The notes under the pieces: model-generated
Database searches by the model: none
The model's input: only the letters and a program-made list of their open reading frames with translations
What the model was told of the DNA's origin: nothing
Position numbers and translations under genes: made by a program
Assembly: GCA_031269465.1 (NCBI GenBank)
Contig: JAISZB010000068.1
Location: forward strand, 1 to 64,000
Length of the DNA stretch: 64,000 nucleotides
Reading direction: 5' to 3'
Source of the DNA: Clostridiales bacterium
GTDB taxonomy: Bacteria > Bacillota > Clostridia > Lachnospirales > WQUN01
Shown: positions 8,631-28,511 of the stretch, in pieces
How positions within the stretch are numbered: position 1 is the first letter of the stretch
Layout of the letters: every line of letters begins with the position of its first letter

Positions 8631-8872
8631 AGGGAGGGTGATATGGTTGATTCAGGCGGCGCGATAAAGCTGCTGCGCCAGCTTTATCGCTCTGCTTGCA
8701 AAAAAGCCTGCGTTTTAGTATTATTTTCTTATGAGCATCCAAGGCCTTGCCCGCAGACGCAAGAAGCTTTGGCTCTTTCAGGCGCCGCCAGCATGCATTG
8801 GCAAGAAGCGGCGGCTGCATTCTTAAATATGCTCAACGCTTAATTTTAGAAGCAATGTCGAGCTTTCAAGGC

Positions 8873-9001
8873 TATACCCGTCCGACTTGCAGCCAAGCGC
8901 ATCTATTTTTAAGCTTTATTATCGGTACGAAATGCCGATATCAATCGCACTCGCTGTACTGCCAAGCGGCGAATAGGCGCTTTCATATCCAAATCAGTAT
9001 A
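8873..9001. repeat. Palindromic element, type B, end 1 on the left
   Basis: TATACCCGTCCGACTTGCAG on the left (a slightly enlarged end 1), a centre with ACGAAATGCCGATATC, and TTTCATATCCAAATCAGTATA-type end 2 on the right. It ends 48 bp before the start of the Sel1-repeat gene and so probably lies in its leader. Confidence 0.75.
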
Positions 9002-9048
9002 GCATCAGCAGGAAATGGAAACTGCATCAGGCTCAGGGGTGAATTGAA

Positions 9049-12000: not shown

Positions 12001-13128
12001 GGCCATCCTGACGCGCAGTGCAGTTACGGAGTCATGCTCGAATGCGGCCAGGGAATGGAAATAAATATGGAAAAGGCATTCGATCTATATGCCGCTTCAG
12101 CTCAACAGGGCAATATAGAAGCGGAGTTCAACCTAGCACTCCTTTACGAAAGCGGATCAGGCATCGCTAAAAATGATTCTCTAGCGGCATTTTGGCACAA
12201 GAAGGCGGCGGATCAAGGACATGTCAAAGCCCAGCTCCAACTCGCCGCCATCTTTGCGCAAGGCTGCGGCGTCCCTCAAGACTATGAAGCGGCGGCTTTA
12301 TTGTATCTTAACGCCGCCGAGAAAGGAAGCGCCGACGCTCAGTATGCGCTGGCAAGCTTTTACGACGCGGGCTTGGGCCTGCCTCAAAGCAGCGAAAATG
12401 CTGCAGCCTGGCTTCTCAGCGCCGCAGAAAAAGGGCACAGGGAAGCGCAGTACAACCTGGCGCTAGCTTATGAGCAAGGCCAGGGAGTTCAAAAAAGCTA
12501 TGAAAAAGCCGCTCAATGGTATGAAGCGTCAGCTTTGCAGGGAGAGTCGAGCGCGCAGTACAACCTCGGCGAATTGTATTATTACGGCCAAGGCGTTTCG
12601 CAAAACTTCAAAACAGCTGCAAAGTGGTATGAAATGGCTGCCGCGCAAGGCGATTCCGACGCGCAGTGCATGCTTGGGTACATGTGCAAAAATGGAGACG
12701 GAATGAAAGCGGATCCCGCAAAGTCCAGCAGATGGTACGCTGCGGCAGCCAGCCAGGGAAACCCTTCCGCCCAATACAATCTGGCTCTCCTGTACTGGAG
12801 CGGCGCAGGCGTGGCAAAAAACGATGTGGAAGCTGCCAACCTTTATAGGAAAGCGGCTCTTCAAGGCCATGACTTGGCGCAGTGCAACCTGGGGGTCATG
12901 TATGAGCGAGGAGAAGGCGTTGAAAAGAACTTGCCTGAAGCTTGCAGATGGTACCAAGCTTCCGCAGAGTCAGGAAACGCTTCGGCCCAGTTCAATTTGG
13001 CCTTGATGATGGAAAGCGGCGCAACCTCCAAAAATATGGACGCGGCGCTGAAATGGTATGAGAAGTCCGCCGCCCAGGGCAATGAAAAAGCCAGAAGGAG
13101 GGTTGAGGAGTTGACTGTGCAGCCGTGA
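9049..13128 (+). CDS. Giant Sel1-like repeat protein (31 full repeats)
   Basis: A 1359-residue protein. Residues 1-~110 form a helical N-terminal domain I do not recognise (KMLLDEGAQRSQAVRVKAAL, GYSFETALNAAYIIIKAAGI). Residues ~125-210 are an acidic linker. From ~225 to the end there are 31 near-perfect 36-residue Sel1-like repeats of the form AEQGDADAQYNLGRLYESGxG plus VxKNxEKAAxWYxKA, and a final partial repeat; repeats 16 and 19 are shortened to about 32-33 residues. Sel1 repeats are TPR-like helix pairs that build superhelical scaffolds for protein-protein contacts. There is no signal peptide or membrane segment, so it is expected in the cytosol. GGGGTGA lies upstream of the ATG. It has no operon partners. 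The repeats differ at DNA level, so the array is old rather than freshly amplified. Confidence 0.92.
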   Translation: MDAIIEILQRAIKANGASILLSSPDIVKKMLLDEGAQRSQAVRVKAALKTGWLNSLLKARDFPVDCKDLFFKIKAISEDTGYSFETALNAAYIIIKAAGIKVDLREEKIISLLEKLTEIGLNGGGSAREEFEDEIFEDGRIEDDEYEDCNPGGEWAEDSFETADPYCILQASAFFTLFGNQESLNANDEPTANYKPGDKDEPSLGNTRENQDLLIKACLSNILSDVEQLKSVAENGDPFSQTMLGHLYEEGICVGQSIDDALSWYRKAAEQGYADAQLSLAECMMEGKGMLKSAAEAVKLFKRAAAQGNPDAKYRLGQLYETGDGIAQSAKEAGKLYLEAAEKGVCEAQLSLAQMLEEGRGMPQDFKAAIFWYEKASKKGDLSAKVNLAQMYEEGRGAEVDLPKAARLYTEAAELGDAMGQFFIGQMHELGYGVEMNCELAAKWYEKSAEQGDSDAQYNLGRLYESGAGVEKNYEKAAHWFNESAGQDDEEAMHALGRLYELGKGVEKSARTAAQWYRRSAEMGCANSQHRLALMLESGEGVDEDIAEAASWHEKAAGQGHVKSAHILGQMYETGHGVAQNLGIASKWYSKAAELGYAASQVNLGIFYENGSGVSKNVDLAAKWYIKAAENGHSTGQFNLGALYQSGKGLAKDFEKAAFWYAKAAEQGDLDACACLGDLYAQGSGVRQDYAEAVKWYEKSAADNNCAAILGLGHLYANGRGVPQDRLKASKLYERAAMLGSRDSQLALAALCECEEGIPNHLEQAVKWYKKAAEGGEPSAMWRLADIFLSTLKEFDQGAAWLRKAADMKVPEAEVWLAILLEEGKSIKQDLEKAAEYYKSAAEQGNLQAQYNLSLMLLDGRGCPENGEEAISLLSKSASGGFADSKEALGLIYETKQKYELAAKWLKEASEHGKAKAGLHLAKLHEYGLGVEKNLKTAAKYYSDSAALGNAEAQYNLGRIYDYGLGVSQSDKLAAHWYGKAAEQGHPDAQCSYGVMLECGQGMEINMEKAFDLYAASAQQGNIEAEFNLALLYESGSGIAKNDSLAAFWHKKAADQGHVKAQLQLAAIFAQGCGVPQDYEAAALLYLNAAEKGSADAQYALASFYDAGLGLPQSSENAAAWLLSAAEKGHREAQYNLALAYEQGQGVQKSYEKAAQWYEASALQGESSAQYNLGELYYYGQGVSQNFKTAAKWYEMAAAQGDSDAQCMLGYMCKNGDGMKADPAKSSRWYAAAASQGNPSAQYNLALLYWSGAGVAKNDVEAANLYRKAALQGHDLAQCNLGVMYERGEGVEKNLPEACRWYQASAESGNASAQFNLALMMESGATSKNMDAALKWYEKSAAQGNEKARRRVEELTVQP

Positions 13129-15629: not shown

Positions 15630-16088
15630 TCAATCATTCGACTGCGGCAGCCTCTTCTTCCCGCCCTCTTTTTTTCCTCTGGAGCCAGCTTCTCTTTCTT
15701 CTCTTATAGCATCGCACTCAGGGCAGAACTCAGGTATGTTCTGCCAGTCTATATTGTAATATATAGTGTTCCCGCAACCGAAAAAGCCGTGGCCGGGGCA
15801 GGATTTCTTTTTCCATTTAGCTTCGTCGGGCTTGCGGGCGAGCTCCTCCACAGCCTTTTCGTACTTAGCTTGGCATGCGGGGCAAAAAGCGGGCGGCTTT
15901 TCGTCATCTGCGGCATAGACAATGATTTGCCTGCAACCCAGAGGCTTCTTGAATCCAGGGCACTTTTTAGCAAGATGCCGCTTGTCCTCCCCTGTTCCGC
16001 CGCACTGTTCGCATGCCACATACCCCTTCAAGGAATCTTCCCAAACATTGCCTTTCCCAAAGCAAACCTTGCACTGAGCATAGTTCAT
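15630..16088 (-). CDS. Cysteine-rich zinc-ribbon-like protein
   Basis: A 152-residue, soluble, strongly charged protein with six or so Cys pairs. The N-terminal CKVCFGKGNV and CEQCGGTGEDK are the CxxCxGxG signature of the DnaJ zinc-binding region. Further pairs are CPGFKKPLGC, FCPACQAKY, SCPGHGFFGC and FCPECDAI, so up to three or four metal sites are possible. No J domain, signal peptide or membrane segment. I do not recognise a named family; a role as a small chaperone-like or nucleic-acid-binding protein would be a guess. The ribosome site is weak (GGGGAG 17 bases upstream). The high, regular Cys content and lack of stops favour a real gene over the open frame on the opposite strand. Confidence 0.6.
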   Translation of the reverse strand: MNYAQCKVCFGKGNVWEDSLKGYVACEQCGGTGEDKRHLAKKCPGFKKPLGCRQIIVYAADDEKPPAFCPACQAKYEKAVEELARKPDEAKWKKKSCPGHGFFGCGNTIYYNIDWQNIPEFCPECDAIREEREAGSRGKKEGGKKRLPQSND

Positions 16089-16176
16089 ATAAAACGCTTC
16101 AATTGCTCCCCATATCTTTGAGGCAAAGGGGCAACAGCCGCTTCCTCCCTTCCGTCAATAAGGAATCTCTCATAAA

Positions 16177-16340
16177 TATGCCGATTTACATATGAAGCCG
16201 ACTGTTTGAACACGAGCGAGCGCGAATGCCGATATCAGAATCGCACATTTAAAGGCGCTGACTTCAGGCATTTAAAAATATCAGCGCCAGGACAGTCAAG
16301 TTCAAGATAGGGCTCATTAGACCGCAAACAGGCATAATAT
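16177..16340. repeat. Degenerate palindromic element with enlarged centre
   Basis: TATGCCGATTTACATATGAA on the left (mixed end), GCGAATGCCGATATC in the middle, and an extra unrelated hairpin (AAAGGCGCTGA / TCAGCGCC) inserted before the right arm CAGTCAAGTTCAAG. Confidence 0.4.
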
Positions 16341-16542
16341 GAATTTCGGCATAAAGCTAAAGCATAGTCGCAGTCTAAGAATCAAGCTGTTTATTTAAAT
16401 CCGTCCAGATCGCTTTCCAACTGCACCCAATATATCACATAAAAGCGGATAATTCAAGTGCATTCCCCAGTTAAAGAAGTTGAGGAGTCTTTCAATAAAA
16501 TTGGGGGCATGTTCAAGACTTGAAATTTCTTTGTGAATTACT

Positions 16543-16571
16543 GTATATGAAGCGAATATTTGGCAATAATA
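16543..16571 (+). promoter_or_regulatory. Candidate sigma-F promoter of spoIIR
   Basis: GTATA (16543-16547), 14 bases, then GGCAATAATA (16562-16571). The second box fits every conserved position of the published sigma-F -10 pattern GGnnAnAHTR, and GTATA fits the GYWTA -35. SpoIIR is a known sigma-F gene in Bacillus. The spacer is a little short and the leader would be about 180 bases long. Confidence 0.5.
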
Positions 16572-16686
16572 CTATATAATGCTTGATATATTGATTTGCA
16601 TTTGAACTGCCAGGGGGCATTTGACTGCAAATCTTAATAATTCAATAGCCTCTTAATTAATAGCGCAGGCACGCGAAATAAGCTAA

Positions 16687-16740
16687 GATTTGCAGTCAAA
16701 TGCACCTATTTAAATAGGCGCTTCGGCGCAAATCAGTATA
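16687..16740. repeat. Mini palindromic element, type B, in the spoIIR leader
   Basis: GATTTGCAGTCAAATGCACC on the left and GGCGCAAATCAGTATA on the right, with ATTTAAATAGG between. Ten bases separate it from the start codon of spoIIR, so it must be part of the transcript. Confidence 0.7.
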
Positions 16741-16750
16741 ATCAAGGGAG

Positions 16751-17503
16751 ATGATAGCGATTATAAAAATCAGCCTTAAAAAAGAACTAAAAATCCTTGC
16801 CGCCTCGCTTGTGTGCGGCATTATACTTGCCATGTGCCTGGGCTACGCTACAAAGGCTTATTCCGAGACAGTGCAGGAAAGCATCGCTAAAGAAGTGCTG
16901 AGGTTCCATGTCCTTGCCAACAGCGATGAAGAGAAGGATCAAGAACTTAAGCTCAAAGTGCGCGACGGCGTCCTTGAAACGTTTAAAGAGGGCTTGTCTA
17001 TGTCGTCTTCCGTAGATGAAACCCGCAAGTTTTTAAGCGCCAGACTCAATGATATTGAGGCGCGAGCTGAAGAGATAGTATTGGAAAACGGCTATTCATA
17101 TAAAGTCTCCGCAAGCCTTTCACACGACTTTTTCCCGACCAAAACCTACGGAGACATAACCTTCCCTCCTGGAAGCTATGAAGCCCTTCGCTTGGTCATA
17201 GGCGAAGGAGAAGGCAAAAACTGGTGGTGCGTCATGTTCCCTCCGCTTTGCTTTGTGGATGTCACAAAGGGAAAGACTACCGATGAAAGCAAGTCGCAGC
17301 TCCAAAGCATAACTACAGCCAGTGAATACAAGCTTCTTTCTGATGACGCCAGAGAACAGGAAGTCACTGTAAAGGTGAAATTCAAAGTGGTGGAATGGTG
17401 GCAGAATATTCTGCGCAAACGCTCCGAGCCGGACGAACCCAAGCAGAAGAGCTATGTCTTGAAAGATTTGGCGCCTAAAGCCAAGCCTTCTGAAAAAGAA
17501 TGA
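16751..17503 (+). CDS. spoIIR: Stage II sporulation protein R
   Basis: A 250-residue secreted signalling protein. In Bacillus, SpoIIR made in the forespore crosses into the intermembrane space and triggers SpoIIGA to process pro-sigma-E in the mother cell. Evidence: N-terminal signal/anchor segment (ILAASLVCGIILAMCLGYA, residues ~15-33), then the hallmark LRFHVLANSDEEKDQELKLKVRD and, near residue 155, GKNWWCVMFPPLCFVD. The C-terminal ~60 residues are basic and less conserved. An oddity is that AAGGGAG directly abuts the ATG with no spacing, so initiation may be weak or use a different in-frame codon just downstream. A candidate sigma-F promoter and a mini palindromic element precede it; a strong terminator follows. 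Its presence indicates an endospore former. Confidence 0.95.
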   Translation: MIAIIKISLKKELKILAASLVCGIILAMCLGYATKAYSETVQESIAKEVLRFHVLANSDEEKDQELKLKVRDGVLETFKEGLSMSSSVDETRKFLSARLNDIEARAEEIVLENGYSYKVSASLSHDFFPTKTYGDITFPPGSYEALRLVIGEGEGKNWWCVMFPPLCFVDVTKGKTTDESKSQLQSITTASEYKLLSDDAREQEVTVKVKFKVVEWWQNILRKRSEPDEPKQKSYVLKDLAPKAKPSEKE

Positions 17504-17554
17504 ATTGTACAAGCAACTTTCAGCAAGCCTTCCCTCCTTCCTCTTTTCTATATA

Positions 17555-17592
17555 GAAAGAGCGGCCTTTAATCTGGCCGCTCTTTCCTTTTC
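17555..17592 (+). terminator. Intrinsic terminator after spoIIR
   Basis: Perfect 12-bp stem GAAAGAGCGGCC (17555-17566) with GGCCGCTCTTTC (17575-17586), eight-base loop, followed by a pyrimidine run. It starts about 50 bases after the spoIIR stop. Confidence 0.9.
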
Positions 17593-17634
17593 TCTCCAAG
17601 GGGAAAATCGCCTTTTTTCGCGCATGAAGTTAAT

Positions 17635-18213
17635 ATGCCTCATTTCAATAAAACGTTTTTTTGCAGTAATCGTCATTATTTCTTACATTACGGCATTTTC
17701 CAAGATTATTTCCTTGACTGCGGGCTTAGGCTAAGCTATACTAAAAGCCAGCAGAGCCAATCTGAGATGATGCAAGAAGTTGCAAGGCTCTTCTCATGCT
17801 TTTCCGCATTGGAGAGCTCCAGCTGCATGGCCGGCTATACAAGCTTGGCGACAAACAGCCCGCCATCTGTGGATTTTGATTGCTCTTCAATATATCAGAG
17901 CCTCAATTGCAACTCCTTTCCATGCTTAAGTCTGAAGATGGCCATGGAAAGCCAAAATCACAAGAGCTATAAGGATTCATATTTCCGCGCTGATCGCGAT
18001 TTTCGAATATTTCATTTTCATTTCACGGATTATTCTAGTGGTTATTTTGAAAATATTTTTTATCATATTATTGCTTATCACATTTTAAATTTGTCGTTAT
18101 TTCATACATCAGACCCTTGCTTGAGCCATTTTTCATTCATTTTTCCTATAATTCAAAACATTTCAGATTATTTACTTAACATTGAGCTTATAAATCCAAT
18201 TGATGCCTTGTAA
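17635..18213 (+). CDS. Doubtful open reading frame, possibly a frameshifted secreted protein
   Basis: An open frame of 192 codons without family resemblance and without a ribosome site. Its first 35 residues are unusually rich in Phe, Tyr and His, as in a frame read out of register. In another frame an ATG at about 17624 opens a 36-residue hydrophobic segment (MKLICLISIKRFFAVIVIIS and onward) that looks like a signal or membrane anchor and stops at a TAG. A real gene with a frameshift near 17730 would reconcile the two, but nothing else supports it. Treat as unproven. Confidence 0.2.
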   Translation: MPHFNKTFFCSNRHYFLHYGIFQDYFLDCGLRLSYTKSQQSQSEMMQEVARLFSCFSALESSSCMAGYTSLATNSPPSVDFDCSSIYQSLNCNSFPCLSLKMAMESQNHKSYKDSYFRADRDFRIFHFHFTDYSSGYFENIFYHIIAYHILNLSLFHTSDPCLSHFSFIFPIIQNISDYLLNIELINPIDAL

Positions 18214-18423
18214 GTTCTGTTCATGCCTAAATATATATACGGAATTACTAAATGTAGACTTTGTTTTCGTGCTTTTTTAGCATTGTCTTAATAAACAATC
18301 ATAATTGCACCAGCAGTTACATAAGCGCGTATTTTGTTTTTATGTTTACATAGATCATTTATCACCATATGATCCAGCCGCTTTGAGCAGTTTCCGGCGC
18401 AATCTTCTAATATAACAAAACTA

Positions 18424-18452
18424 TTGACAAATTAATACATGTTTGATATCAT
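18424..18452 (+). promoter_or_regulatory. Strong sigma-A promoter for the surface-protein cluster
   Basis: Consensus -35 TTGACA (18424-18429) and -10 TATCAT (18447-18452), spacer exactly 17. It predicts a leader of about 245 bases ahead of the signal-peptidase gene. I looked for a c-di-GMP riboswitch in that leader because matrix genes often have one, and did not find its conserved segments. Confidence 0.6.
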
Positions 18453-18706
18453 GGTCTTATAATTCTAGCCTCTCTTGTCTAGCTTGGTCGCATCACTGCT
18501 GATTTTCGCGAGAAAAGCGGCTGTCAAGAGATTCCTTCTGGAAATTGTTCATCGCCGCGCGAATTTTGGCGCCAAGCATTGAGAAGGCAGGAATAAGCAT
18601 GTGCGTCTCATTCATGATTGCGCCGCAAATAGCGGTTTGCGGGAATGGCCCCCGATTTTTTGAAATATAAGTCGAAGAATTTTTTTGGGATAAGGCAGGT
18701 GAAAAT

Positions 18707-21700
18707 ATGGCAAAAGCGCTTAACGAACTGAATCATGAACTGCAAACAGAATTCAGCCAAGAACCAACGCTGGATCCTTCCAAATTTCCGGAACCCTATC
18801 CAAGCTTTACGATCTTGAAAGCTGGCAGCGATCAACTTCGGGACGCACAAAATGACAAAAATGCTGGCCAGAGATCACCTGACGCACCCGTCACCAAGTC
18901 TTCGGCCTCTAGCATGTACGATATGGAGTCTGCCAAGCCTTTCATCTTGGATTTGTACAAGCCTATACCAACCCCGACGCCGCCTCAGGACTTATTCCCT
19001 CCGAGGCCCGCGCCGAATTTTCTACAGAGCTCCCAGCAGAAATCAGAGGATATTAAGCAGATCCAGCTGGATCCGCCCCGCTTTCCTACTGCCATAGAAC
19101 TCTTCGCTCAGACCGAGGCTCAGTTTCCAAAAGAGCTGCCGGCCCCTCCAGGGCCGAAGCCGCAGAACTATTATCAGCCTGAGGCGTCGAAGCCTTTGAA
19201 AGATCTCAACGCTAAGCCTCTTTCTAAAGACTTCTATTCTACAGCGACCTCAGCCAAGCCGCTTGCGCCCGGATTCTACTCTCCGGCAACCGACTACATA
19301 AGCTCCTCGTTTCCGCCTCCGGCCGCCGAAACTTATAAAACTCCTGCGGCGCCCAAGGCGTCTTACAAGCCTGGAGATTATTACGAGGCTCTCCAGAGGC
19401 AGAAAATGCAGGCTCAAAGAGCCGAACCGCCTGCTCAGGAAACGCCCAAGGCATTGCAGTTCGCTCCTGAGCCCTCCAAGTCCCCGCTGTATGAGCCGCC
19501 GAAGGCGGCAACATATGAACCGCCCAAGATGACTACATATGAACCGCTCAAGATAACACCGTATGAGCCCCTTAAAATAGAGACGCATGAATCTCCCAAG
19601 GCTGCATCCTATGAACCGCCCGCATCGCCGCCTTCTGCTCCTGAGTCTCCGTTTGCCCAGTATTTTCTGGATCTGCGCAAGATTGCGCCTTACACTCCGG
19701 AAATCCCCCCGCAAACGCAGCAAACTCCAGAGGCAAATCCAGCCCTGAGCGCCCGCGCTCCAGAGGCGAAGGCTCAATCAAGCCCTTATATGCCCGATGT
19801 GAAGCCGTCGCCGCAGACGTACATACCAGAAGCAAAGGTTCTGCATAATCCCTACGCTCCCGGACTCACTCCGCCTTACACAAGCGAGTATTCCGCGAAG
19901 CCGTCCGGAGGGAATTTTTACTCTGCAAAGCCCGGTTCACAGGAAAACGCGCAGATGCCGGCGCGAGGCTTCCCGCTGGAAGCTTCCTCCTTTCCAGCTG
20001 AAGCGCAGAACTACTTCAACGCTCAGCAAACCTATAATCCTTCTTCTGGCGGCATGAAGGCCGCCTCGCCAACCGAGGCCCAGCTTAATGACGCCTATAT
20101 GGCAACAGCTGCAAGGCTTCAGCAGAGCGGATATAGGGCTCCTGATCCCCAAAACGGATATGGACGCCAGAATCTTCAAGACTATGCGCCATCGAGACAG
20201 GGAATTCCCGAATACACTCCGTCCCGGCAGGAATCCGAGGGCTATGCTCAGCCCCGGCAAGGCATTCCCGAATACACTCCGCCCCGGCAGGAATCTGAGG
20301 GCTATGCTCAGCCCCGGCAAAGCGATCCAGAATACATGCTTCCCGCGAGCCAGGACTCCCAGCCCAGAATGCCGGCCTTCGACTACAGCAGGCCGAAGCA
20401 GGCGAGCCAGGACTCCCAGCCCAGAATGCCGGCCTTCGACTACAGCAGGCCGAAGCAGGCGAGCCAGGACTCCCAGCCCAGAATGCCAGCCTTCGACTAC
20501 AGCAGGCCGAAGCAGGCGAGCCAGGACTCCCAGCCCAGAATGCCGGCCTTCGACTATAGCAGGCCGAAGCAGGCGAGCCAGGACTCCCAGCCCAGAATGC
20601 CGGCCTTCGACTATGGGCAAACCCGGCAAGAAAAGCGCCCTGTTGCTTCTTATACACAGTCCAAGCAACCTCATGAAGAACCTCAAAAGGCGTTTGCTAA
20701 TGACGAGCCGATTTCAAAGCAAACTTCCGCCGATTATGCTCCGCGTCAGACAAACCAAGATGATCCGCCTCAGACGCAGGATTTTGCTCAGTTGCGGCAG
20801 GCAAGCCAAGAGTTCGCGAATAGGCAGACGGCTCAATCTCCACTTAAGCCGCCTCATGAATATGTACAGTCCCTGACAAGGCCTACGACTCAAAGCGGCG
20901 TCAGGCCCAGCCAATCCCAACCAGGCTATGCCTTGGCGGCGCCTTCGCAGGCAGCAGGCGCAAAGCCTGTGCAAGGAAAGCAAAACGGCAAGATATCCCG
21001 AGTCCAGAAGACAAGGCATAACGGCAAGACCGCTCAGAATCAAGTCGGCGCCGCGCCTGCATCAAGCTATCAAAACACCGCTAATCCATATGGGCCGAGC
21101 GTATTCTCCAACCCGAACGCCTTCAGCCGCGTAGGCGCGCAAAACTTAAGCATCTTCAGCGCCGGAGAGAATCAGAAATACCTTGAAGAGCAGCATAGCG
21201 AAGGGCATGACCCTTATATGCCGCCTCAGCAGAATGGCCAGCCATCATACGAGCAGGTTCAAAACCTCACTCAGCCGAGCGGGCGCGCATACCAAAACAT
21301 TCGGGATCCCGACAGCCAGGACAATCATGTTCTCCCGGAAAACCAGGCGCGCTATCCGGCTCCTAAAAGCAAGGAGCACTATGCATCCGCCAAGAATCAG
21401 GAACGCCATCCATCCACTAGAAGCCAGGGCAGCCACCCTTTTCCGAAGAGCCAGTCGGGAGCATCCCAGCATGCTGACGATGGCGCGTCCGAGCGCTTCG
21501 ATGTATCAGCCATCAACAGATCATTCTTGGAGAATCCGGATGTAGTTCCCCATACTGTAGATCCTTCTCGAAAGAAAAGCTATCCGAAGGCTTCGTCCAA
21601 GCAGCAGCCTTACAGCGGCAAGCGAGAAGCTAGTAAACAGGCTCCCGGCAATAAAGCCGTCCAGAAAAGGCCTCCCGCAAAAATCGAGGATGGAGCTAAG

Positions 21701-22288
21701 AAGAAAAGGCCGATAACAGTATGGACCAGGGTTTCAGACGCTATATTTTACCTGGCTTTAGTGCTTATGGTGGGAGCGGCAGTCTATTACAACACAAGGG
21801 AGAACGGTCCGATTGTCCTTTTCAAGCATTCTATAATGACTGTGCTCACAACAAGCATGCAGAGCGTCTACCCCAAGGGTTCGCTGGTAGTGCTGAAAGA
21901 AGTTGATCCAGACACATTGGTTGAAGGCGATGACATAACCTACATGAAGGATCAGAGCACTTCAGTAACCCACCGCATTCAAGAGATTTTCGAAAACTAT
22001 GAAAACACTGGCGCTAGAGGCTTCCAGACTTACGGCGTAAACAACGGCGCTCCGGATCAGGGGATTGTCCCCGCAATCCATGTAAGAGGGAAAGTGATCT
22101 TCCATATACCTAAGTTGGGCATGGTCATAGCCTATGTGGGCGACAACATCGTCCTCCTAGTGGGCATGTTCGGCCTTCTGCTCATTCTTTCCTTCCTGGT
22201 CAGAGGCCTGTTCAAAAACGACGACTTGCAAAGCGGAAAATCTCCCGGCAGCATTAAGAAGAGGAAGAGCAGCGAAGCATACTCCTAA
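18707..22288 (+). CDS. ER-type (SipW-like) signal peptidase I with a ~1000-residue proline/glutamine-rich N-terminal extension
   Basis: 1193 residues. The last ~190 are a complete ER-type signal peptidase I: membrane segment at ~1015-1035 (ISDAIFYLALVLMVG-like), nucleophile Ser1050 in TTSMQSVYPKGS, His1089 in VTHRI (His in place of bacterial Lys is the ER/SipW hallmark), Asp1117 in NNGAPDQGIVP, then a second membrane helix and a basic tail. Residues 1-~1010 are low-complexity, rich in Pro, Gln, Ala, Ser, Tyr and Lys, without signal peptide. They include YEPPK-type repeats (~265-305), GIPEYTPxRQESEGYAQPRQ repeats (~500-540) and five 19-residue units (QDSQPRMPAFDYSRPKQAS). SipW-type peptidases are normally about 180-200 residues; I know of no standard family with this extension. 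The topology would place it in the cytosol. AGGTGA lies six bases upstream of the ATG. The next two genes encode likely substrates. Confidence 0.85.
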   Translation: MAKALNELNHELQTEFSQEPTLDPSKFPEPYPSFTILKAGSDQLRDAQNDKNAGQRSPDAPVTKSSASSMYDMESAKPFILDLYKPIPTPTPPQDLFPPRPAPNFLQSSQQKSEDIKQIQLDPPRFPTAIELFAQTEAQFPKELPAPPGPKPQNYYQPEASKPLKDLNAKPLSKDFYSTATSAKPLAPGFYSPATDYISSSFPPPAAETYKTPAAPKASYKPGDYYEALQRQKMQAQRAEPPAQETPKALQFAPEPSKSPLYEPPKAATYEPPKMTTYEPLKITPYEPLKIETHESPKAASYEPPASPPSAPESPFAQYFLDLRKIAPYTPEIPPQTQQTPEANPALSARAPEAKAQSSPYMPDVKPSPQTYIPEAKVLHNPYAPGLTPPYTSEYSAKPSGGNFYSAKPGSQENAQMPARGFPLEASSFPAEAQNYFNAQQTYNPSSGGMKAASPTEAQLNDAYMATAARLQQSGYRAPDPQNGYGRQNLQDYAPSRQGIPEYTPSRQESEGYAQPRQGIPEYTPPRQESEGYAQPRQSDPEYMLPASQDSQPRMPAFDYSRPKQASQDSQPRMPAFDYSRPKQASQDSQPRMPAFDYSRPKQASQDSQPRMPAFDYSRPKQASQDSQPRMPAFDYGQTRQEKRPVASYTQSKQPHEEPQKAFANDEPISKQTSADYAPRQTNQDDPPQTQDFAQLRQASQEFANRQTAQSPLKPPHEYVQSLTRPTTQSGVRPSQSQPGYALAAPSQAAGAKPVQGKQNGKISRVQKTRHNGKTAQNQVGAAPASSYQNTANPYGPSVFSNPNAFSRVGAQNLSIFSAGENQKYLEEQHSEGHDPYMPPQQNGQPSYEQVQNLTQPSGRAYQNIRDPDSQDNHVLPENQARYPAPKSKEHYASAKNQERHPSTRSQGSHPFPKSQSGASQHADDGASERFDVSAINRSFLENPDVVPHTVDPSRKKSYPKASSKQQPYSGKREASKQAPGNKAVQKRPPAKIEDGAKKKRPITVWTRVSDAIFYLALVLMVGAAVYYNTRENGPIVLFKHSIMTVLTTSMQSVYPKGSLVVLKEVDPDTLVEGDDITYMKDQSTSVTHRIQEIFENYENTGARGFQTYGVNNGAPDQGIVPAIHVRGKVIFHIPKLGMVIAYVGDNIVLLVGMFGLLLILSFLVRGLFKNDDLQSGKSPGSIKKRKSSEAYS
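20345..20614 (+). repeat. 57-bp tandem repeat array inside the signal-peptidase gene
   Basis: Five units starting at 20345, 20402, 20459, 20516 and 20573, the last incomplete. The first four are identical apart from one or two silent changes, which indicates very recent expansion by slippage or unequal crossing-over. Each unit encodes 19 residues in frame (QDSQPRMPAFDYSRPKQAS), so copy-number change would not break the protein. Confidence 0.95.
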
Positions 22289-22946
22289 AGAGCAAGAGCG
22301 GCAAGGCGCGCTCCTGATATATTCATACAGGGAAAAGCCTCATTCAGAATCACCAAGCAACCTTTGCAGCGCTTATCACTCTTATTGATACAATTTCCCA
22401 GAAAGGAGAAGCTGCCAAACAAGCAAGCGGTTTATCCCTTATGCACCGCCAAAGGTGCGTGCAATAAATAAGGAACGGTGGATCGAAAGATTCATCGCGC
22501 CCTTAAGCCTTCGGAGCAATACCCGAATAAAGCAAGCTCCAGCGGATTTAAAACCCAGCCCCGCAATTCAGCAGGCAAAATGACAAACGCTTCCCCCAAA
22601 GCGCATCGGATTATTTATGGCCGCTGATTTACAGGACAATACATAACGGGCAGTTTTTCAAGCTGCCTGCGCTGATGAGTGGCTTGAGCATTTCAAGAGG
22701 AGAGCGCAAAAGCTCTCATGCCTCCTGAAAATGAGCCGTTCAGCTTGCGGCATATTGAGGCAAGTTGCTCCGATGGCATGCAGAAGCATGGACTTTGAAG
22801 CTAAAAGTCCAGCTCCGTCGCACACTTTTATACATTCGCTAAGGCGCCTGTTTGGAGCGCGGTTTTCTTTTTAGCTGCGCTTAATGCTTAATTGATAAAG
22901 GCTAGAGGATGAATCTCTTGAGTGCCTTTATAGGCAGCGCTTAATT
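22289..22946. other. 660-bp gap between signal-peptidase gene and first substrate gene
   Basis: No gene or known RNA recognised. Small hairpins are visible: GAGAGC/GCTCTC (22700-22717), GGACTTT/AAAAGTCC (~22793-22813) and ATAAAGGC/GCCTTTAT (~22894-22932), the last just before the next start codon where it could affect initiation. The length suggests that the substrate gene has its own promoter, but I could not pick a convincing one. Confidence 0.5.
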
Positions 22947-23882
22947 ATGAGCAAAAAGAAAAAAATCATTGCTGTTTTCAGCATTCTCATTTCCGTAAGC
23001 ATGTTGGCAAGCGGCACTTTCGCTTGGACTCAGATGGTTACCAAAACCAACGAATTCATCGGCTCTTCCAGCGGCAATATAATCCTACACGACGACTTTG
23101 ATCCCGCGACAGGGCTGAAGGATGTATATGTGGAAAGCCTTGGTCCGAAAAAGACATTGTTCGTTCGGATAAAGCTAGGCGAATACATGAATTTGAATAG
23201 CTCCGACAAGCCTTCCGATTTGGAAGATCCTGAAATGTATCCGTCATATTACAAGCCGCATTTCCACGCAGGCATGATTTCACCTGAGGACTGCGGACAG
23301 GCCAATGACGAAGGCGATAAATTCCACGACTCCTTCAAGTGGACTGTGGGAGGGCAAAAATTCTACTACCCGGCAGTAGCTCCGGACGCGTCGCTCCTTG
23401 ATCAAGATCCAGAGGCGGACGTTTTCTGCGACACAACCTACTATGACGGTTCTGAAACGTATGTTCGACAAACTCCTGATGCCAACCTTATAAGCATCGA
23501 CTCATACAATTCATTAAGCGATGCGGAGAAAAAGGCTCTTACAGCCTGGATTATGGACAAGGACGGATTTGCATACTGGTCCCAGCCTTTAGGGGAAGAG
23601 TCCGAAGGCACAAGCATCACCCCTGAAACCGGGTTGCTCCTGCATCATGTAGAAACGCTCGACTCCGCAAAGGATAAAGATTTTTACTACGCGATAAATA
23701 TCAAATGCGAGGCCGTAGACCACTCAGATCTTCTCATGTGGACAGATGACGGCGACTCAATTGACCCCATCCTTGGCGTCAAGCAGGGAGTCCCTTCAGT
23801 TGACGGTTCGGGGCGCAGATTTACTTTAGCTACGGACGAAGCCATACAAGCTCTTAATTCGATAATATCATTAGCTCCTTAA
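22947..23882 (+). CDS. SipW-dependent secreted matrix-type protein (TasA/BsaA/camelysin-like)
   Basis: 311 residues. The N-terminus (KKKKIIAVFSILISVSMLASGTFAW) has the SipW-cognate leader pattern: basic start, hydrophobic core, then SGTFAWT. TasA, CalY/camelysin and clostridial BsaA, all processed by SipW, share it. The mature part starts with a beta-rich stretch (NEFIGSSSGNIILHDDFDP) and is acidic and aromatic-rich, with no C-terminal anchor, consistent with a released or fibre-forming protein. Two Cys pairs may form disulfides. The protein is longer than BsaA or TasA in the middle part, so fibre formation is inference from leader type and neighbourhood. It lies directly downstream of an ER-type signal peptidase, the expected processing enzyme. 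The ribosome site is weak. A double hairpin terminator follows. Confidence 0.75.
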   Translation: MSKKKKIIAVFSILISVSMLASGTFAWTQMVTKTNEFIGSSSGNIILHDDFDPATGLKDVYVESLGPKKTLFVRIKLGEYMNLNSSDKPSDLEDPEMYPSYYKPHFHAGMISPEDCGQANDEGDKFHDSFKWTVGGQKFYYPAVAPDASLLDQDPEADVFCDTTYYDGSETYVRQTPDANLISIDSYNSLSDAEKKALTAWIMDKDGFAYWSQPLGEESEGTSITPETGLLLHHVETLDSAKDKDFYYAINIKCEAVDHSDLLMWTDDGDSIDPILGVKQGVPSVDGSGRRFTLATDEAIQALNSIISLAP

Positions 23883-23912
23883 GACATGCCGGAGAGGATG
23901 ATTTTCTTCATT

Positions 23913-23987
23913 GCTTGCCGCAAAGCGGCGGCGCTCCGCCGTTACAGGCAAGCCTTGGATAATTTTCCAAGGCATTTGCGTTTTTTT
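23913..23987 (+). terminator. Double-hairpin terminator after the matrix-type gene
   Basis: GCTTGCC (23913-23919) pairs with GGCAAGC (23947-23953) around a smaller CGGCGG/CCGCCG hairpin. An overlapping second hairpin, GCCTTGGA (23952-23959) with TCCAAGGC (23966-23973), is followed by a seven-T run at 23981-23987. The two stems share bases and cannot form at once. Confidence 0.75.
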
Positions 23988-24097
23988 GAATGCTCAGGAT
24001 TTAGGGATTTACGGTACATTCGCAGTCAGCGTTGGTTTTTGCGATCCTTTGCAAATGTAACCTAACTTCAATTTTATGCCAGGTAGCGGGTGATTTT

Positions 24098-27097
24098 ATG
24101 AGAAACGCCAATAGAAAGATAGATAAATTCTTCGAAAATAACAAGTTGGTTTTCAAAACGCTTTGCGTGCTTTTAAGCTGCGTTTTCGTCCTGTCTACTT
24201 TTATGTCGGGCACATATACATGGAGCGCTATTATAAACAAGACGGGGACGTTTATAAATAAAGCGTCTGCTGAAGGCATGTCAAGGCTAATGATATCCAA
24301 ATCCGCCGTTGCTATGGACGGCTCGGAGCTTTCCGGCGAAGAGCTTGAGGCATTATACGCCTTCACGGTGGACATACCGAATGTCGCCGACAAGCAGGTT
24401 GAATACCATATAAAAACCGACGCCACAGGAGAGATTTCCAGGCAGGGCGCCTTTACGCCCGCCGGCTTGGATGGCGAGGACAGCACGCTCTATCTTAAGC
24501 CGGGAGAGTCCGCGATAATTTTTGACATACCGACAGGCTCCTGGTACAGGGTCATTGAAAAGCCTGGCTACGGCTACATTATTTCAAGCAACGGCCACAA
24601 TGGAAATGTGCTGCCTGACGGAAGCCACGCCGAATTCGCCAACAGAATATACGAAGAGCCTATAGAAACCGGAACGCTGGAAATAAGCAAGCGCGCGGAA
24701 TCCGGCAATCGACAGTTCAAATTCACAATAACCTTCGATTACAACGGCGAACCGTACACCGAACCCGTAAAGTACAGCTTGGGTTCCGGAACAGAAACGC
24801 TGCTGCCCAGTGAAGGAGCCATTTATTTGCAGCCGGATGAAACCGCTTATTTCAAGGGACTCCCAGCCGGCTTGCATTACACCCTTGCTGAAGACGACTA
24901 TGAAAGCGAAGGGTACATATCAAGCGCCGACACGACAAGCGGCTATGTAATTCCCGACAGCTCGAGGCTTGAGGTTTACAATGAGCTTATAGATGCGGAT
25001 GGGGATGACATTTCTTATGTCATTATAGAAAAGAATATCTTGAACAGCGATGAAGACTACGACCAGCCATTTAACTTCAGAGTGAAGATAGATGAGTCAG
25101 GCGTGTCAAGCTCTTGGCTAAATGTTGATGAAATTCCAGATTCAGAAGTGCCTGAGCCGGATGTCCCCGAAGGCGGCTCATTTGATGAGGAAGGCGACAT
25201 CCAAACTTCAGGGAGCGGATTAAGCGCCTCCCTTGCCAGAGACGCTGCGTTTTACAGCGCGTTTTCCATAGATCCAAGCGAATTCGCGTCTTTAGAAGCC
25301 GAGCCTTCAACCGGAGATGCCGACGTCTCAGAATACGGCGCCGCCTCCGATGCCGCAGAAAGCTCCGATGCCGCAGAAAGCTTCGATGCCGCAGAGACCG
25401 ATTCCGCCGGTTTCGATGATTCAGAAGCAACCGATGAAGAGACTGCATTTGAGGCTAACAGCGAAAGCTATCAAGAACCCAGTCAGGCGCTAGAATCTGC
25501 CGAACCAACCGCGACCTCAGAACCCGCCAGCGCTTCCGAGCCGCCGACAGCCTCTGAGAAGCCGGCATCGACCGAAGAACCTGAAGGCGCCACTGATGCG
25601 GCTGATGACGAAATCGAGGCTTTTGCCGAAGAAGGCCTTGAAGGTGAAAACTCCGAGGAGGAAATTCCTGAAGAGGAAACAGAGGAAACAGGCCTGGAAA
25701 TCGAGCCGCTCGAAGCGCCCTTATTTGGACTGGAAGCGTTCAGCATTGAAAACTACTTCGAAAGTGACGGACGATTCCTTTATTCGATGATTGAAGATGA
25801 AGATCTCGCCTATGTTTTATCGCTAGGTCACTATGTGCATTTCGTCGGAGATCACGCAGACGAGGACTCATATGAAATAGACGTAAATGGAGACATTCTG
25901 CTGAGCATGCATCACGGAGACATCGCTACAATCATAAACATTCCTGTAGGCGCCAACTATATTGTCACTGAGGAGCTTGGCTCGACCGATGAATTCCTTC
26001 CAGTAATTGAGTCTGTTTCCGGCAAGGCTGCAAGGAATCCTCAAAGCCTGGTATTCGCCAATTACCGCAGGGATATGGCAGAGCTTACAGTTACAAAGGT
26101 TGTTGTTGGAAATGACGAAGCCGACGACGAATTCACAGCCAGAGTCTTTGTAGATGGAGAGGAAAGGCATTCAGCTGTTCTTAAAAACGGAGAGAGTGAA
26201 ACATTCCTTGTACCCAAAGGCGCCACCTACGATGTTATAGAAGATGACGCGTATGGACTCGGGTATTACGGCTACGTCGCAAACGGATACGGTACAGTCG
26301 TTTCAGACGAAATATTGGCAGTGATAACCAATACCAAGATTGGAATGCCAAGCGCTACACCTACGCCCGGCGCCCCGGAAGAACTCACTCCCACTCCGTC
26401 GGCTGCTACCCCTACGCCTGAAATTCCAGAGGGACCGATAACTCCTCCCGGCGGCAATACAGAAGAAGATCCGCCATCCCCCACACCGGAGCCATCGCCC
26501 AGCGCTACAGTTGCTCCTGCCGAGCCTTCACCGACTCCGGCAGACGTTCCCTCACCGACGCCAGGCGGAACCGGCGGCGGCGATCCCTCGCCTACTCCGG
26601 CAGATGTTCCTTCACCGACGCCAGGCGGAACCGGCGGCGGCGATCCTTCGCCTACTCCGGCGGAATCAGGGCCGACAGGATACCCGACGCCTCAGCCGAC
26701 TTCAATTCCAAGCTGGCCCGATAATCCGTCGACTCCGCAACCTGATTATCCACGCTACACTCCAACGCCTACTCCTGATCAGCAGGAAAGCGCGAGTCCA
26801 GCCCCGAGCGCCACTCCCACGGAAGCGCCTCCCGACGAAGGATTTACAGAAATTCCTACGCCCACGCCTCCCGGAACAGGCGGCGGATTCTTGGATGTTC
26901 CCACTCCGCCTGCATATTCAGAGCCTTCGCTAACTCCGGAGCCTCCACCTAAAGGCAATGTGGACCTGCCTGACAATCCGAAGACTGAAGACGCCTCGAA
27001 TCCCATACCGTGGTTCTTATTGATGGTTGCAAGCGCCGTGCTGCTTCGGCTGATGCTTCTGCACAGGCCGGTGTCCTCTGCGGTTCCAGTAAAATAA
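24098..27097 (+). CDS. Large SipW-type secreted protein with repeat domains, Pro-Thr stalk and NPKTE C-terminal anchor
   Basis: 999 residues. The leader is SipW-like (LCVLLSCVFVLSTFMSGTYTW, residues ~25-46). Then come about four beta-sandwich-type repeats (each with a GTLEISKRAES/ELTVTKVVVG start, an LKPGES/LQPDET or LKNGES motif, and a GAxYxVxE end). They resemble DUF5979/SpaA-like domains of Gram-positive surface proteins. Between repeats 2 and 3 lies a Ser/Glu/Ala-rich acidic stretch (~380-540). A Pro-Thr-Ser stalk with PSPTPADV units (~770-950) follows. The C-terminus is LPDNPKTEDASNP, a hydrophobic helix, and a short basic tail: the layout of a sortase sorting signal. No sortase is in the window. 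The ATG at 24098 has GGGTGAT ahead of it; an upstream in-frame ATG at 24032 has none. Likely a wall-anchored partner of the neighbouring matrix-type protein. Confidence 0.75.
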   Translation: MRNANRKIDKFFENNKLVFKTLCVLLSCVFVLSTFMSGTYTWSAIINKTGTFINKASAEGMSRLMISKSAVAMDGSELSGEELEALYAFTVDIPNVADKQVEYHIKTDATGEISRQGAFTPAGLDGEDSTLYLKPGESAIIFDIPTGSWYRVIEKPGYGYIISSNGHNGNVLPDGSHAEFANRIYEEPIETGTLEISKRAESGNRQFKFTITFDYNGEPYTEPVKYSLGSGTETLLPSEGAIYLQPDETAYFKGLPAGLHYTLAEDDYESEGYISSADTTSGYVIPDSSRLEVYNELIDADGDDISYVIIEKNILNSDEDYDQPFNFRVKIDESGVSSSWLNVDEIPDSEVPEPDVPEGGSFDEEGDIQTSGSGLSASLARDAAFYSAFSIDPSEFASLEAEPSTGDADVSEYGAASDAAESSDAAESFDAAETDSAGFDDSEATDEETAFEANSESYQEPSQALESAEPTATSEPASASEPPTASEKPASTEEPEGATDAADDEIEAFAEEGLEGENSEEEIPEEETEETGLEIEPLEAPLFGLEAFSIENYFESDGRFLYSMIEDEDLAYVLSLGHYVHFVGDHADEDSYEIDVNGDILLSMHHGDIATIINIPVGANYIVTEELGSTDEFLPVIESVSGKAARNPQSLVFANYRRDMAELTVTKVVVGNDEADDEFTARVFVDGEERHSAVLKNGESETFLVPKGATYDVIEDDAYGLGYYGYVANGYGTVVSDEILAVITNTKIGMPSATPTPGAPEELTPTPSAATPTPEIPEGPITPPGGNTEEDPPSPTPEPSPSATVAPAEPSPTPADVPSPTPGGTGGGDPSPTPADVPSPTPGGTGGGDPSPTPAESGPTGYPTPQPTSIPSWPDNPSTPQPDYPRYTPTPTPDQQESASPAPSATPTEAPPDEGFTEIPTPTPPGTGGGFLDVPTPPAYSEPSLTPEPPPKGNVDLPDNPKTEDASNPIPWFLLMVASAVLLRLMLLHRPVSSAVPVK
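26525..26664 (+). repeat. 60-bp tandem repeat in the Pro-Thr stalk
   Basis: Two nearly identical 60-bp units and part of a third, encoding 20-residue units with PSPTPADV and GGTGGGD. In-frame and therefore length-variable without loss of the anchor. Confidence 0.85.
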
Positions 27098-27104
27098 TCT
27101 CGCT

Positions 27105-27143
27105 AAGGGATGGAAACGGCTATTGCCGCTTCCATCCCTTTTC
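27105..27143. terminator. Convergent terminator between the anchored protein and cheV
   Basis: AAGGGATGGAAACGGC (27105-27120) and GCCGCTTCCATCCCTT (27125-27140), one mismatch in 16 pairs, four-base loop, with T-runs at the right place in both directions. Confidence 0.85.
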
Positions 27144-27151
27144 ATGGCACC

Positions 27152-28075
27152 CTACTTCAAAACCCTATCTATAATCGTTATGAGCTTCGCTATCTCCGGC
27201 TTTGTAATCTGCGCTGTCGCGCCTAATTTCTCGCCTTTTTTATACATTTGCTCGTTTATGAGCGATGAGAATATTATTACGGGAACGTCCTTAAAATCAT
27301 CATCCTCCCTAATAAGCTTCAAGAGCCGGTGCCCGTCCATTTTCGGCATTTCTATGTCTGTTATCACAAGAGAAACTTTATCTTTCATCTTCCCCGGCCT
27401 GCCCTTAATCTCATCAAGCATCTTCCAAGCTTCTTCACCGTTCGAGCAACGCATTACATTGATGTATCCCGCCTTGTCAAGGCATTTTACAATCACCTTT
27501 TCCAGTAGAGGCGAATCCTCTGCAAGCATAATGGGCTTCTTTACTTTCTCCCTGTCCTCCATTTTCTCAATTTCGCTGACCTTAATGCTTTCAACCGGGC
27601 TTATGTCCGCGACTATCTTCTCGAAGTCTATCAAAGTAATAAGCCTGCCGTCATATCTTGCGATTCCAGTCGCAATGCCCTCTTCTCCCCCGTATATTGC
27701 GGAGTCGGGCTTCTCTATGTCCTTCCAGCCAAGGCGGTGTATGTCCTCCACGGAATGCACGTGGAAAGCTGAATGCATTTTATTGAAGTTCGTTACAATT
27801 ACAATGTCATTCTCTGGATTTGCGGAAGCCGGCAGCCCTAAGTATTTAGCTAAGTCTATAACGGTGATGATAATGTCTCTAGGCTTGAACACGCCTTCGA
27901 CGTACCTATTCGAGTGAGGCATAGGCGTAATGTTGTCTTCATAGCGGAGAATTTCCTCCACCTTTGAAACATTTATGCCGAAATGTCTATTGTCAATTGT
28001 GAACTCAATGAGTTGGAGCTCGTTGGTTCCGCTCTCCAGCAATATCTCGCTTTTCTCTTTCATGCTTACAGCCAT
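27152..28075 (-). CDS. cheV: Chemotaxis protein CheV (CheW domain + receiver)
   Basis: 307 residues, the normal CheV length. Residues ~10-165 are a CheW-like coupling domain (NELQLIEFTIDNRHFGINVSKVEEI, FKPRDIIITVIDLAKYLGL, GRLITLIDFEKIV). Residues ~185-305 are a receiver: PIMLAEDSPLLEK with acidic pair, phospho-acceptor Asp in SLVITDIEMPKMDG, Ser and Lys in VIIFSS and ITKPE. CheV couples receptors to CheA and can tune signalling by being phosphorylated. The frame extends upstream to 28225 but through a palindromic element; GAGGAGG lies five bases before the ATG at 28075, so I start there. No other chemotaxis or flagellar gene is nearby; solitary cheV genes are not unusual in Clostridia. Confidence 0.92.
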   Translation of the reverse strand: MAVSMKEKSEILLESGTNELQLIEFTIDNRHFGINVSKVEEILRYEDNITPMPHSNRYVEGVFKPRDIIITVIDLAKYLGLPASANPENDIVIVTNFNKMHSAFHVHSVEDIHRLGWKDIEKPDSAIYGGEEGIATGIARYDGRLITLIDFEKIVADISPVESIKVSEIEKMEDREKVKKPIMLAEDSPLLEKVIVKCLDKAGYINVMRCSNGEEAWKMLDEIKGRPGKMKDKVSLVITDIEMPKMDGHRLLKLIREDDDFKDVPVIIFSSLINEQMYKKGEKLGATAQITKPEIAKLITIIDRVLK

Positions 28076-28110
28076 GGTTGCCTCCTCTGTCCAAAATGAC
28101 CCAAAGCCAG

Positions 28111-28420
28111 ATAATACAGATTTGCAGTCAAATGCATCTATTTTGGAGCTTGATTGTCCATGTACCGATTTGCAGTCAAACGCATCTGTACTGATTTTCA
28201 TAGGAAACTGCTTTTTTTGGAGCATGATTATACAGCGAGTGCGATTGATATAGGCATTTCGTACCGCTCAATGGATCATCAACAAAAAAAGTAACATTTA
28301 ATGAAAATCGGTAATCTAGGAGTTTGACCGTCCATTTTCAAGCTTCGAAATTACGATATCAATCGCGCTTGCTGTACAGTCAAGCTTCAAAACAGGAAAT
28401 ATCATGTGCAAATCAGTATA
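28111..28420. repeat. Type B palindromic element material interrupted by a type A copy
   Basis: The left part (28113-28186) holds two type B end-1 arms in a row (GATTTGCAGTCAAATGCATC with GGAGCTTGATTGTCC, then TACCGATTTGCAGTCAAA). The right part (28316-28420) is a type B half with GTACAGTCAAGCTTCAAAAC and end 2 (ATGTGCAAATCAGTATA). A full type A copy (28187-28314) lies between. Confidence 0.65.
28187..28314. repeat. Palindromic element, type A, end 2 on the left, nested
   Basis: TACTGATTTTCATAGGAAAC on the left, GGAGCATGATTATACAGCGAG, centre TGCGATTGATATAGGCATTT, right GGATCATCAACAAAAAAAG and ATGAAAATCGGTA. Sits upstream of cheV, inside type B sequence. Confidence 0.8.
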
Positions 28421-28511
28421 GCTGGCTTTGCCAGCATGTCGGCATATGTTTAAGCGCTTGGCCGAAGGGCCAAATGCTGCTATTCCTTTTTTACGCAACT
28501 TTTTCCTGAGT

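Follow-up and report, generated by a model that had tools for sequence, protein, structure and literature searches.

Most accounts of signal peptidases regard them as membrane housekeeping enzymes that bear no cellular address. SipA of Streptococcus pyogenes, an S26A-type homologue, is not known to have a long cytosolic extension, and neither is SpsB of Staphylococcus aureus, an S26A enzyme. We describe here a 1193-residue protein encoded at 18707–22288 (+ strand) in 64,000 nucleotides of Clostridiales bacterium DNA (assembly GCA_031269465.1, contig JAISZB010000068.1, positions 1 to 64,000; this whole stretch is called the window), in which a SipW-like signal peptidase follows an N-terminal extension of about 1000 residues. 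The extension begins with a short peptide that is conserved among relatives, including catalytically dead ones. We put the probability at about one half that the extension is a cytosolic tether that would dock a dedicated SipW-type peptidase, probably to a scaffold of the DivIVA-like kind, and so serve to export surface fibres locally. Some signal peptidases may thus carry an address peptide on a long tether and keep it even after catalysis is lost, which, if true, would offer a simple way to test how bacteria pick the cell site where surface fibres are built.

Bacillaceae SipW and the window enzyme have in common the catalytic domain, the Ser/His/Asp triad, the membrane anchor and neighbouring substrates with SipW-type signals (PMC4551309). 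The Bacillaceae homologues, however, are only ~190 residues long with almost nothing ahead of the first membrane helix, compared with the 1000-residue extension here, and the probable substrates at the window locus, unlike those of the Bacillaceae system, include DUF7601 adhesins with sortase-type tails. S. pyogenes SipA sets a precedent, as a signal-peptidase homologue that is catalytically dead and yet required for fibre assembly (PMC4049620); with the relatives of the window enzyme it shares the signal-peptidase fold (4n31), a surface-fibre locus with a class B sortase and a dead member that matters (PMC4049620, PMC3019223), whereas the window enzyme itself keeps the catalytic residues. The DivIVA homologue GpsB engages PBP1 through the initial 16 residues of the latter's cytosolic tail, and the GpsB/DivIVA clients likewise combine a DivIVA-domain protein with a membrane enzyme bearing a short conserved cytosolic N-terminal peptide (PMC6335420). 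The client peptide is of the SRxxR type, whereas that of the present family is LNELNxEF and lies ~75–990 residues from the membrane. SpsB shows septal enrichment, and a surface protein depends on SpsB cleavage activity to be deposited at the septum; the location of a surface protein can thus be set by where a signal peptidase is placed (PMC11898559). Our literature searches found no paper joining a signal peptidase, a disordered N-terminal extension and Sec11, and none linking DivIVA to a SipW signal peptidase, as judged on title and abstract.

A conserved peptide at the start of the extension

The first ~12 residues are the only broadly conserved section of the extension. The window protein starts with MAKALNELNHEL, its N-terminal peptide reading MAKALNELNHELQTEF, and the consensus MxKxLNELNxEF begins 13 peptidases of one family (the window protein included, and one of them a fragment). 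Starts of relatives are MAKPLNELNLEF, MAKALNELNEDF, MPRPLHELNLEF, MAKPLNELNTEF, PRSINEINNDF, VKPLNEINREF, SLEDINREF and SLEQLNWEF, and the start is shared by those relatives in family f1 that have a long extension and a visible 5' end. A profile of nine sequences and 21 columns, searched in eight genomes with a threshold of E < 1e-3, matched 12 S26B peptidases, each at its N-terminus, and a gene fragment at a contig end (G009:C205) and nothing else, the next-best match having an E-value of 0.22. Three of the matched peptidases (2.8e-7, 3.8e-5 and 8e-4) and the fragment (3.4e-5) had been held out from the profile, and in leave-one-out tests 6 of the 9 peptides outranked all non-peptidase open reading frames (ORFs). 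The peptide is absent from G007:C234, L098 and L099; L100 has a similar stretch, LTLEELTAEF, but at an internal position and not at the protein start, and the N-terminus of a relative with a longer frame, G560 (L149), differs.

The peptide is conserved while the length of the linker behind it is not, since relatives have between 90 and 1003 residues ahead of their first membrane helix. The common layout is the peptide, a fast-evolving linker of ~75 to 990 residues, and then a membrane helix, the peptidase domain and a second membrane helix. In G009:C97, ~80 residues separate the peptide from the membrane helix and repeats are nearly absent.

Catalytic Ser and His have been lost with the peptide kept in three relatives (G001:C40, G008:C138 and G007:C160), whose genomes also hold second copies that bear the triad (G001:C425, G008:C170 and G007:C234). 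Retention of the peptide without catalysis argues that it serves something other than cleavage, and these dead relatives suggest a role of the tail in placement. The gene order at G007:C160 (peptidase, adhesin, CheV, asparagine synthase, ThiF) is that of the window copy, and the dead gene is therefore probably the positional orthologue of the window gene.

The linker and the reading frame

Residues 1–1000 consist of 14.6% Pro, 11.3% Ala, 10.5% Gln and 10.3% Ser, with no Cys and no Trp. Low confidence in the AlphaFold2 model, which was made at full length from a shallow alignment, is weak evidence of disorder by itself, and the composition agrees with it. The first-pass annotation, made from the sequence of the window, had described a low-complexity extension of ~1000 residues with three separate repeat types; composition and the modelled coil bear this out, and repeat units of 24, 60 and 57 nt were found (Table 1). 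The repeats are the least conserved portion of the extension and differ wholly among relatives. As the assembly may have collapsed the 57-nt array, the exact length of the protein is uncertain. Block-by-block codon usage of the extension was not informative.

Two relatives of one genus, G008:C170 and G007:C152, served to examine selection on the linker of a congeneric pair. The ratio of nonsynonymous to synonymous rates (dN/dS) is ~0.25 in frame over 273 codons, whereas dN and dS are nearly equal in each of the two other frames, in an alignment that was built on protein and somewhat favours the true frame. Differences in the linker fall 85/80/145 on the three codon positions, and the partial peptidase portion of the same pair has a dN/dS of 0.09. 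Judged by these substitution patterns, the extension is translated and under purifying selection as protein in relatives such as this pair.

The reading frame is intact, and ATG18707 is its sole in-frame start with a listed Shine-Dalgarno sequence. The first-pass annotation had asked whether an internal start near 21690 yields a short form. The listing of in-frame starts holds none there, and the final candidates ahead of the membrane helix, ATG at codon 838 and TTG at codon 941, both lack a Shine-Dalgarno sequence, so a short form made in this way was rejected. A chance open frame was likewise rejected, on the grounds that orthologues share the N-terminus and of the dN/dS in the relative pair.

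The peptidase domain

The C-terminal ~190 residues are an endoplasmic reticulum-type (S26B) signal peptidase (TIGR02228, 70.8 bits; cutoff 51.85). The SipW model NF046067 scores 58–63.5 bits, under its curated cutoff of 190, and the enzyme is SipW-like and not a SipW equivalog; Pfam gave no signal-peptidase match at E 0.1. Ser1050, His1089 (not Lys) and Asp1117 align with the triads of relatives and of the Bacillaceae homologues, exactly at the positions first proposed for an enzyme of this type. Foldseek places human SEC11C (E = 3.6e-6) and SEC11A (1.6e-5) at the top of its PDB matches, followed by S. pyogenes SipA (4n31; 1.5e-3). The AlphaFold2 model consists of an isolated helix at residues 2–14 (mean predicted local distance difference test score, pLDDT, of 67 over residues 1–10), a low-confidence coil over ~15–1000, a transmembrane helix at 1005–1030, a beta-rich domain at 1041–1134 and a second transmembrane helix at 1148–1168. 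The positive-inside rule presumably puts the extension on the cytosolic side.

Gene neighbourhood

Among 246 genomes of the order, six genes encode a DivIVA domain (PF05103) at more than 200 bits, and all six lie directly upstream of such a peptidase, with a gap of 20–30 nt in five cases and 294 nt in the sixth. This 6/6 pairing is hard to explain without a functional link. One of these loci, the paralogue G000:C67, is in the window's own genome; the window copy lacks a DivIVA neighbour, and a partner for the window enzyme would have to come from that locus.

The window gene itself lies 3' of spoIIR and a terminator-like hairpin. Both genes downstream of it match the SipW-type signal pattern, compared with 0 of 31 other ORFs in the window. 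The nearer one encodes a secreted, TasA-like protein of no Pfam or NCBIfam family, the AlphaFold2 model of which has a pLDDT of 34, too low for its fold to be read. The second is a large adhesin, also without an NCBIfam model, that ends in NPKTE, a C-terminal hydrophobic segment and a short tail. Sortase genes occur in five related loci, G000:C67 included, and none was seen among the neighbours of the window copy.

DivIVA-like proteins with long Pro-rich tails were also noticed at L145:5610-6506 (−) and L146:644-1849 (+), 298 and 401 residues in total length, in genomes that have these peptidases.

Distribution and paralogues

We sampled 38 genomes of family f1, 246 of the order, 391 of the class and 398 of the phylum with a nine-row profile. 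Relatives above ~170 bits came from f1, with a single further one, G560, in the class. S26B frames outside f1 were mostly 170–480 residues long, with exceptions of 593–673 residues in two families of the phylum. A scan of named genomes with a four-row alignment gave seven loci. The close named records are metagenome-assembled genomes, and bin Kf353 originates from the termite Kalotermes flavicollis and bin Ncb351 from the termite Neotermes cubanus (PMC11707648). Peptidases with the predicted tether are seen in one Clostridia family with termite-gut members. In the tree the window copy groups with G001:C425 (84/91) and G000:C67 with G001:C40 (96/87), which indicates two paralogous loci in the genus. 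Genomes of this genus measure 7.7–8.8 Mb, compared with 1.7–3.7 Mb in the rest of the family.

S26B peptidases with a receiver domain were found in two other families of the phylum, at L167:4997-6979 (−), L168:3376-5382 and 8869-10605 (+), and L169:6228-7997 (−). They are 572–668 residues long, with an N-terminal PF00072 domain (below Pfam's cutoff in L169 and the second L168 copy), a disordered linker of ~270–360 residues and an S26B membrane domain, and they adjoin SipW-type secreted proteins. Their module is a folded receiver domain, in contrast to the short helix of the window protein, and their peptidase domain is distant (~80 bits versus 277 for the window). The layout probably has an independent origin. 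The same layout with a different module supports a linker that joins a cytosolic module to the enzyme, and suggests that such modules were joined to SipW-type enzymes by long linkers more than once. The second L168 copy (8869-10605) seems to lack catalytic Ser and His.

Several paralogues were noted in passing. Catalytically dead S26B copies with the N-terminal peptide lie at L048:1505-4228, L142:3119-3898 and L143:6678-7478. A separate S26B branch of the same genus (G000:C100, L056; G001:C211, L057; G000:C327, L058) has no LNELNxEF peptide and, counted from the first start, 202–765 residues ahead of the membrane helix; in G000:C100 Arg replaces the catalytic His. Another S26B branch (G009:C86, L062; G003:C66, L061; G004:C339, L063) has long low-complexity C-terminal tails, presumably cytosolic.

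A possible mechanism and its alternatives

These results lead us to propose that the peptidase, anchored in the membrane and held by a cytosolic tether, serves neighbouring surface proteins as a dedicated enzyme. The first ~12 residues would form an amphipathic docking helix (MxKxLNELNxEF), and the disordered linker would give this helix the reach to bind a distant scaffold in the cytosol, the catalytic domain remaining on the outer side of the membrane. As the scaffold, the likeliest candidate would be the DivIVA-domain protein encoded directly upstream in related loci, and the peptidase would then be concentrated at the pole, the septum or the site of fibre assembly. Cleavage there would remove the SipW-type signals from both the TasA-like protein and the DUF7601 adhesin, after which a sortase would anchor the adhesin. 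We infer the docking, its partner, the cellular location and the cleavage from sequence comparisons. DivIVA is our leading guess for the partner, from the gene pairing and the likeness to GpsB and PBP1, and the data as a whole suggest that the tail ties the enzyme to a particular place of surface-fibre building. A stricter version, in which the helix docks both the peptidase and its dead paralogues on a tether of up to ~1000 residues to a co-encoded DivIVA-type scaffold, and processing and anchoring of the fibres would thereby share one site on the cell, is more tentative and somewhat less probable.

Several observations weigh against docking at DivIVA. The window copy and its closest relative G001:C425, which both lie 3' of spoIIR, have no DivIVA gene next to them, and G016:C172 and G009:C79 have the peptide without an adjacent DivIVA gene. 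A GpsB motif of the SRxxR type is missing from the peptide, and nearness to the membrane is reported to be important in binding to GpsB (PMC6335420), whereas ~1000 residues lie between the window peptide and the membrane. In the leave-one-out tests 3 of the 9 peptides fell just under one decoy, which had been chosen as a weak hit. The peptide is borne by draft genomes of a single family in every case, and the constraint test used relatives with linkers of ~290–350 residues, not the window gene.

The helix could instead bind another partner, such as the Sec translocase, a sortase complex, a kinase or the membrane surface, the linker still being a tether. The peptidases with the peptide that lack an adjacent DivIVA gene (the four just named, G008:C138 and G007:C160) are in line with this, as are the receiver-domain peptidases, in which the cytosolic module need not be the same; yet all DivIVA-like genes of this type adjoin such peptidases, and we consider another partner rather unlikely. 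The first-pass annotation proposed that the extension scaffolds or gathers substrates at the membrane. A positioning role fits the first half of this proposal. Gathering of substrates by the linker repeats, or a membrane condensate formed by them, would suit the long Pro/Gln/Tyr-rich repeats and the long disordered N- or C-terminal tails of other S26B paralogues in the genus and family. However, the repeats differ wholly between relatives and nearly vanish in G009:C97 (~80 residues). Signal peptides are cleaved at the outer face of the membrane and not in the cytosol, whereas the extension is presumed cytosolic. Conservation of the first ~12 residues in 13 peptidases, 3 of them dead, argues for docking at the far end rather than for gathering by repeats, which appears improbable.

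An equally small chance is left to a largely neutral expansion of low-complexity sequence in a large genome, with no role beyond that of the enzyme. Length varies about tenfold, the repeats are of the slippage type and the genomes are unusually large, but the peptide is conserved at every length and in dead copies, and the linker of the congeneric pair is under purifying selection. That only the ~190-residue peptidase is made, by an internal start or by processing, is the least probable of these explanations by far. The C-terminal 190 residues alone are like an ordinary SipW in size and fold, but no in-frame start with a Shine-Dalgarno sequence lies near the membrane helix, those motif-bearing relatives that show their 5' end have an open frame and the same N-terminus, and the linker is constrained as protein in the relative pair. 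The earlier reading of the locus as an S26B peptidase with a translated, mostly disordered extension stands, and is extended by the conserved peptide, DivIVA, the SipW-type substrates and the sortase, which it had missed.

Other features of the window

The features of the locus are collected in Table 1. The promoter-like site lies ~255 nt 5' of the peptidase gene, and no Rfam match was found in 16000–28500.

Table 1. Features of the signal peptidase locus in window coordinates.
Feature	Position	Strand	Basis
Putative sigma-70-like promoter, TTGACA-17-TATCAT, TG ahead of -10	18424..18452	+	Consensus scan, 11/12 matches
Shine-Dalgarno AGGTGA, spacing 4 nt to ATG	18697..18702	+	Start-codon listing
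S26B (SipW-like) signal peptidase with 1000-residue N-terminal extension	18707..22288	+	ORF, NCBIfam, AlphaFold2
Conserved peptide MAKALNELNHELQT, residues 1-14, predicted helix 2-14	18707..18748	+	Profile search, leave-one-out, AlphaFold2
Disordered Pro/Ala/Gln/Ser linker, residues 15-1003	18749..21715	+	Composition, low-pLDDT coil
24-nt repeats, 8-residue YEPPKxxT type	19490..19566	+	Repeat search
60-nt repeat, 2.2 copies, 20 residues	20204..20336	+	Repeat search
57-nt repeat, 4.7 copies at 98%, 19-residue ASQDSQPRMPAFDYSRPKQ	20345..20613	+	Repeat search
First membrane helix, residues 1005-1030, basic patch before it	21719..21796	+	AlphaFold2 secondary structure
S26B catalytic domain, residues 1041-1134	21827..22108	+	NCBIfam, alignment, AlphaFold2, Foldseek
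Ser1050 codon	21854..21856	+	
His1089 codon	21971..21973	+	
Asp1117 codon	22055..22057	+	
Second membrane helix, residues 1148-1168	22148..22210	+	AlphaFold2
Secreted protein, SipW-type signal peptide ASGTFAWTQ...NEFIG, probable substrate	22947..23882	+	Signal pattern; neighbour conserved in relatives
Large DUF7601-repeat adhesin, SipW-type signal peptide, probable substrate	24095..27097	+	PF24547 E 6.9e-40, 4 stretches; signal pattern
NPKTE, putative sortase-B-like sorting signal	26975..26989	+	Compared with NPQTG, SPQTM, NPKTS in relatives

Elsewhere in the window, a 1359-residue protein at 9049–13128 apparently consists of Sel1-like (tetratricopeptide-type) repeats, and the gene at 36534–38801 (−) seems to encode a subtilisin-like protease with N-terminal repeats of the copper-amine-oxidase type, both as judged by eye.

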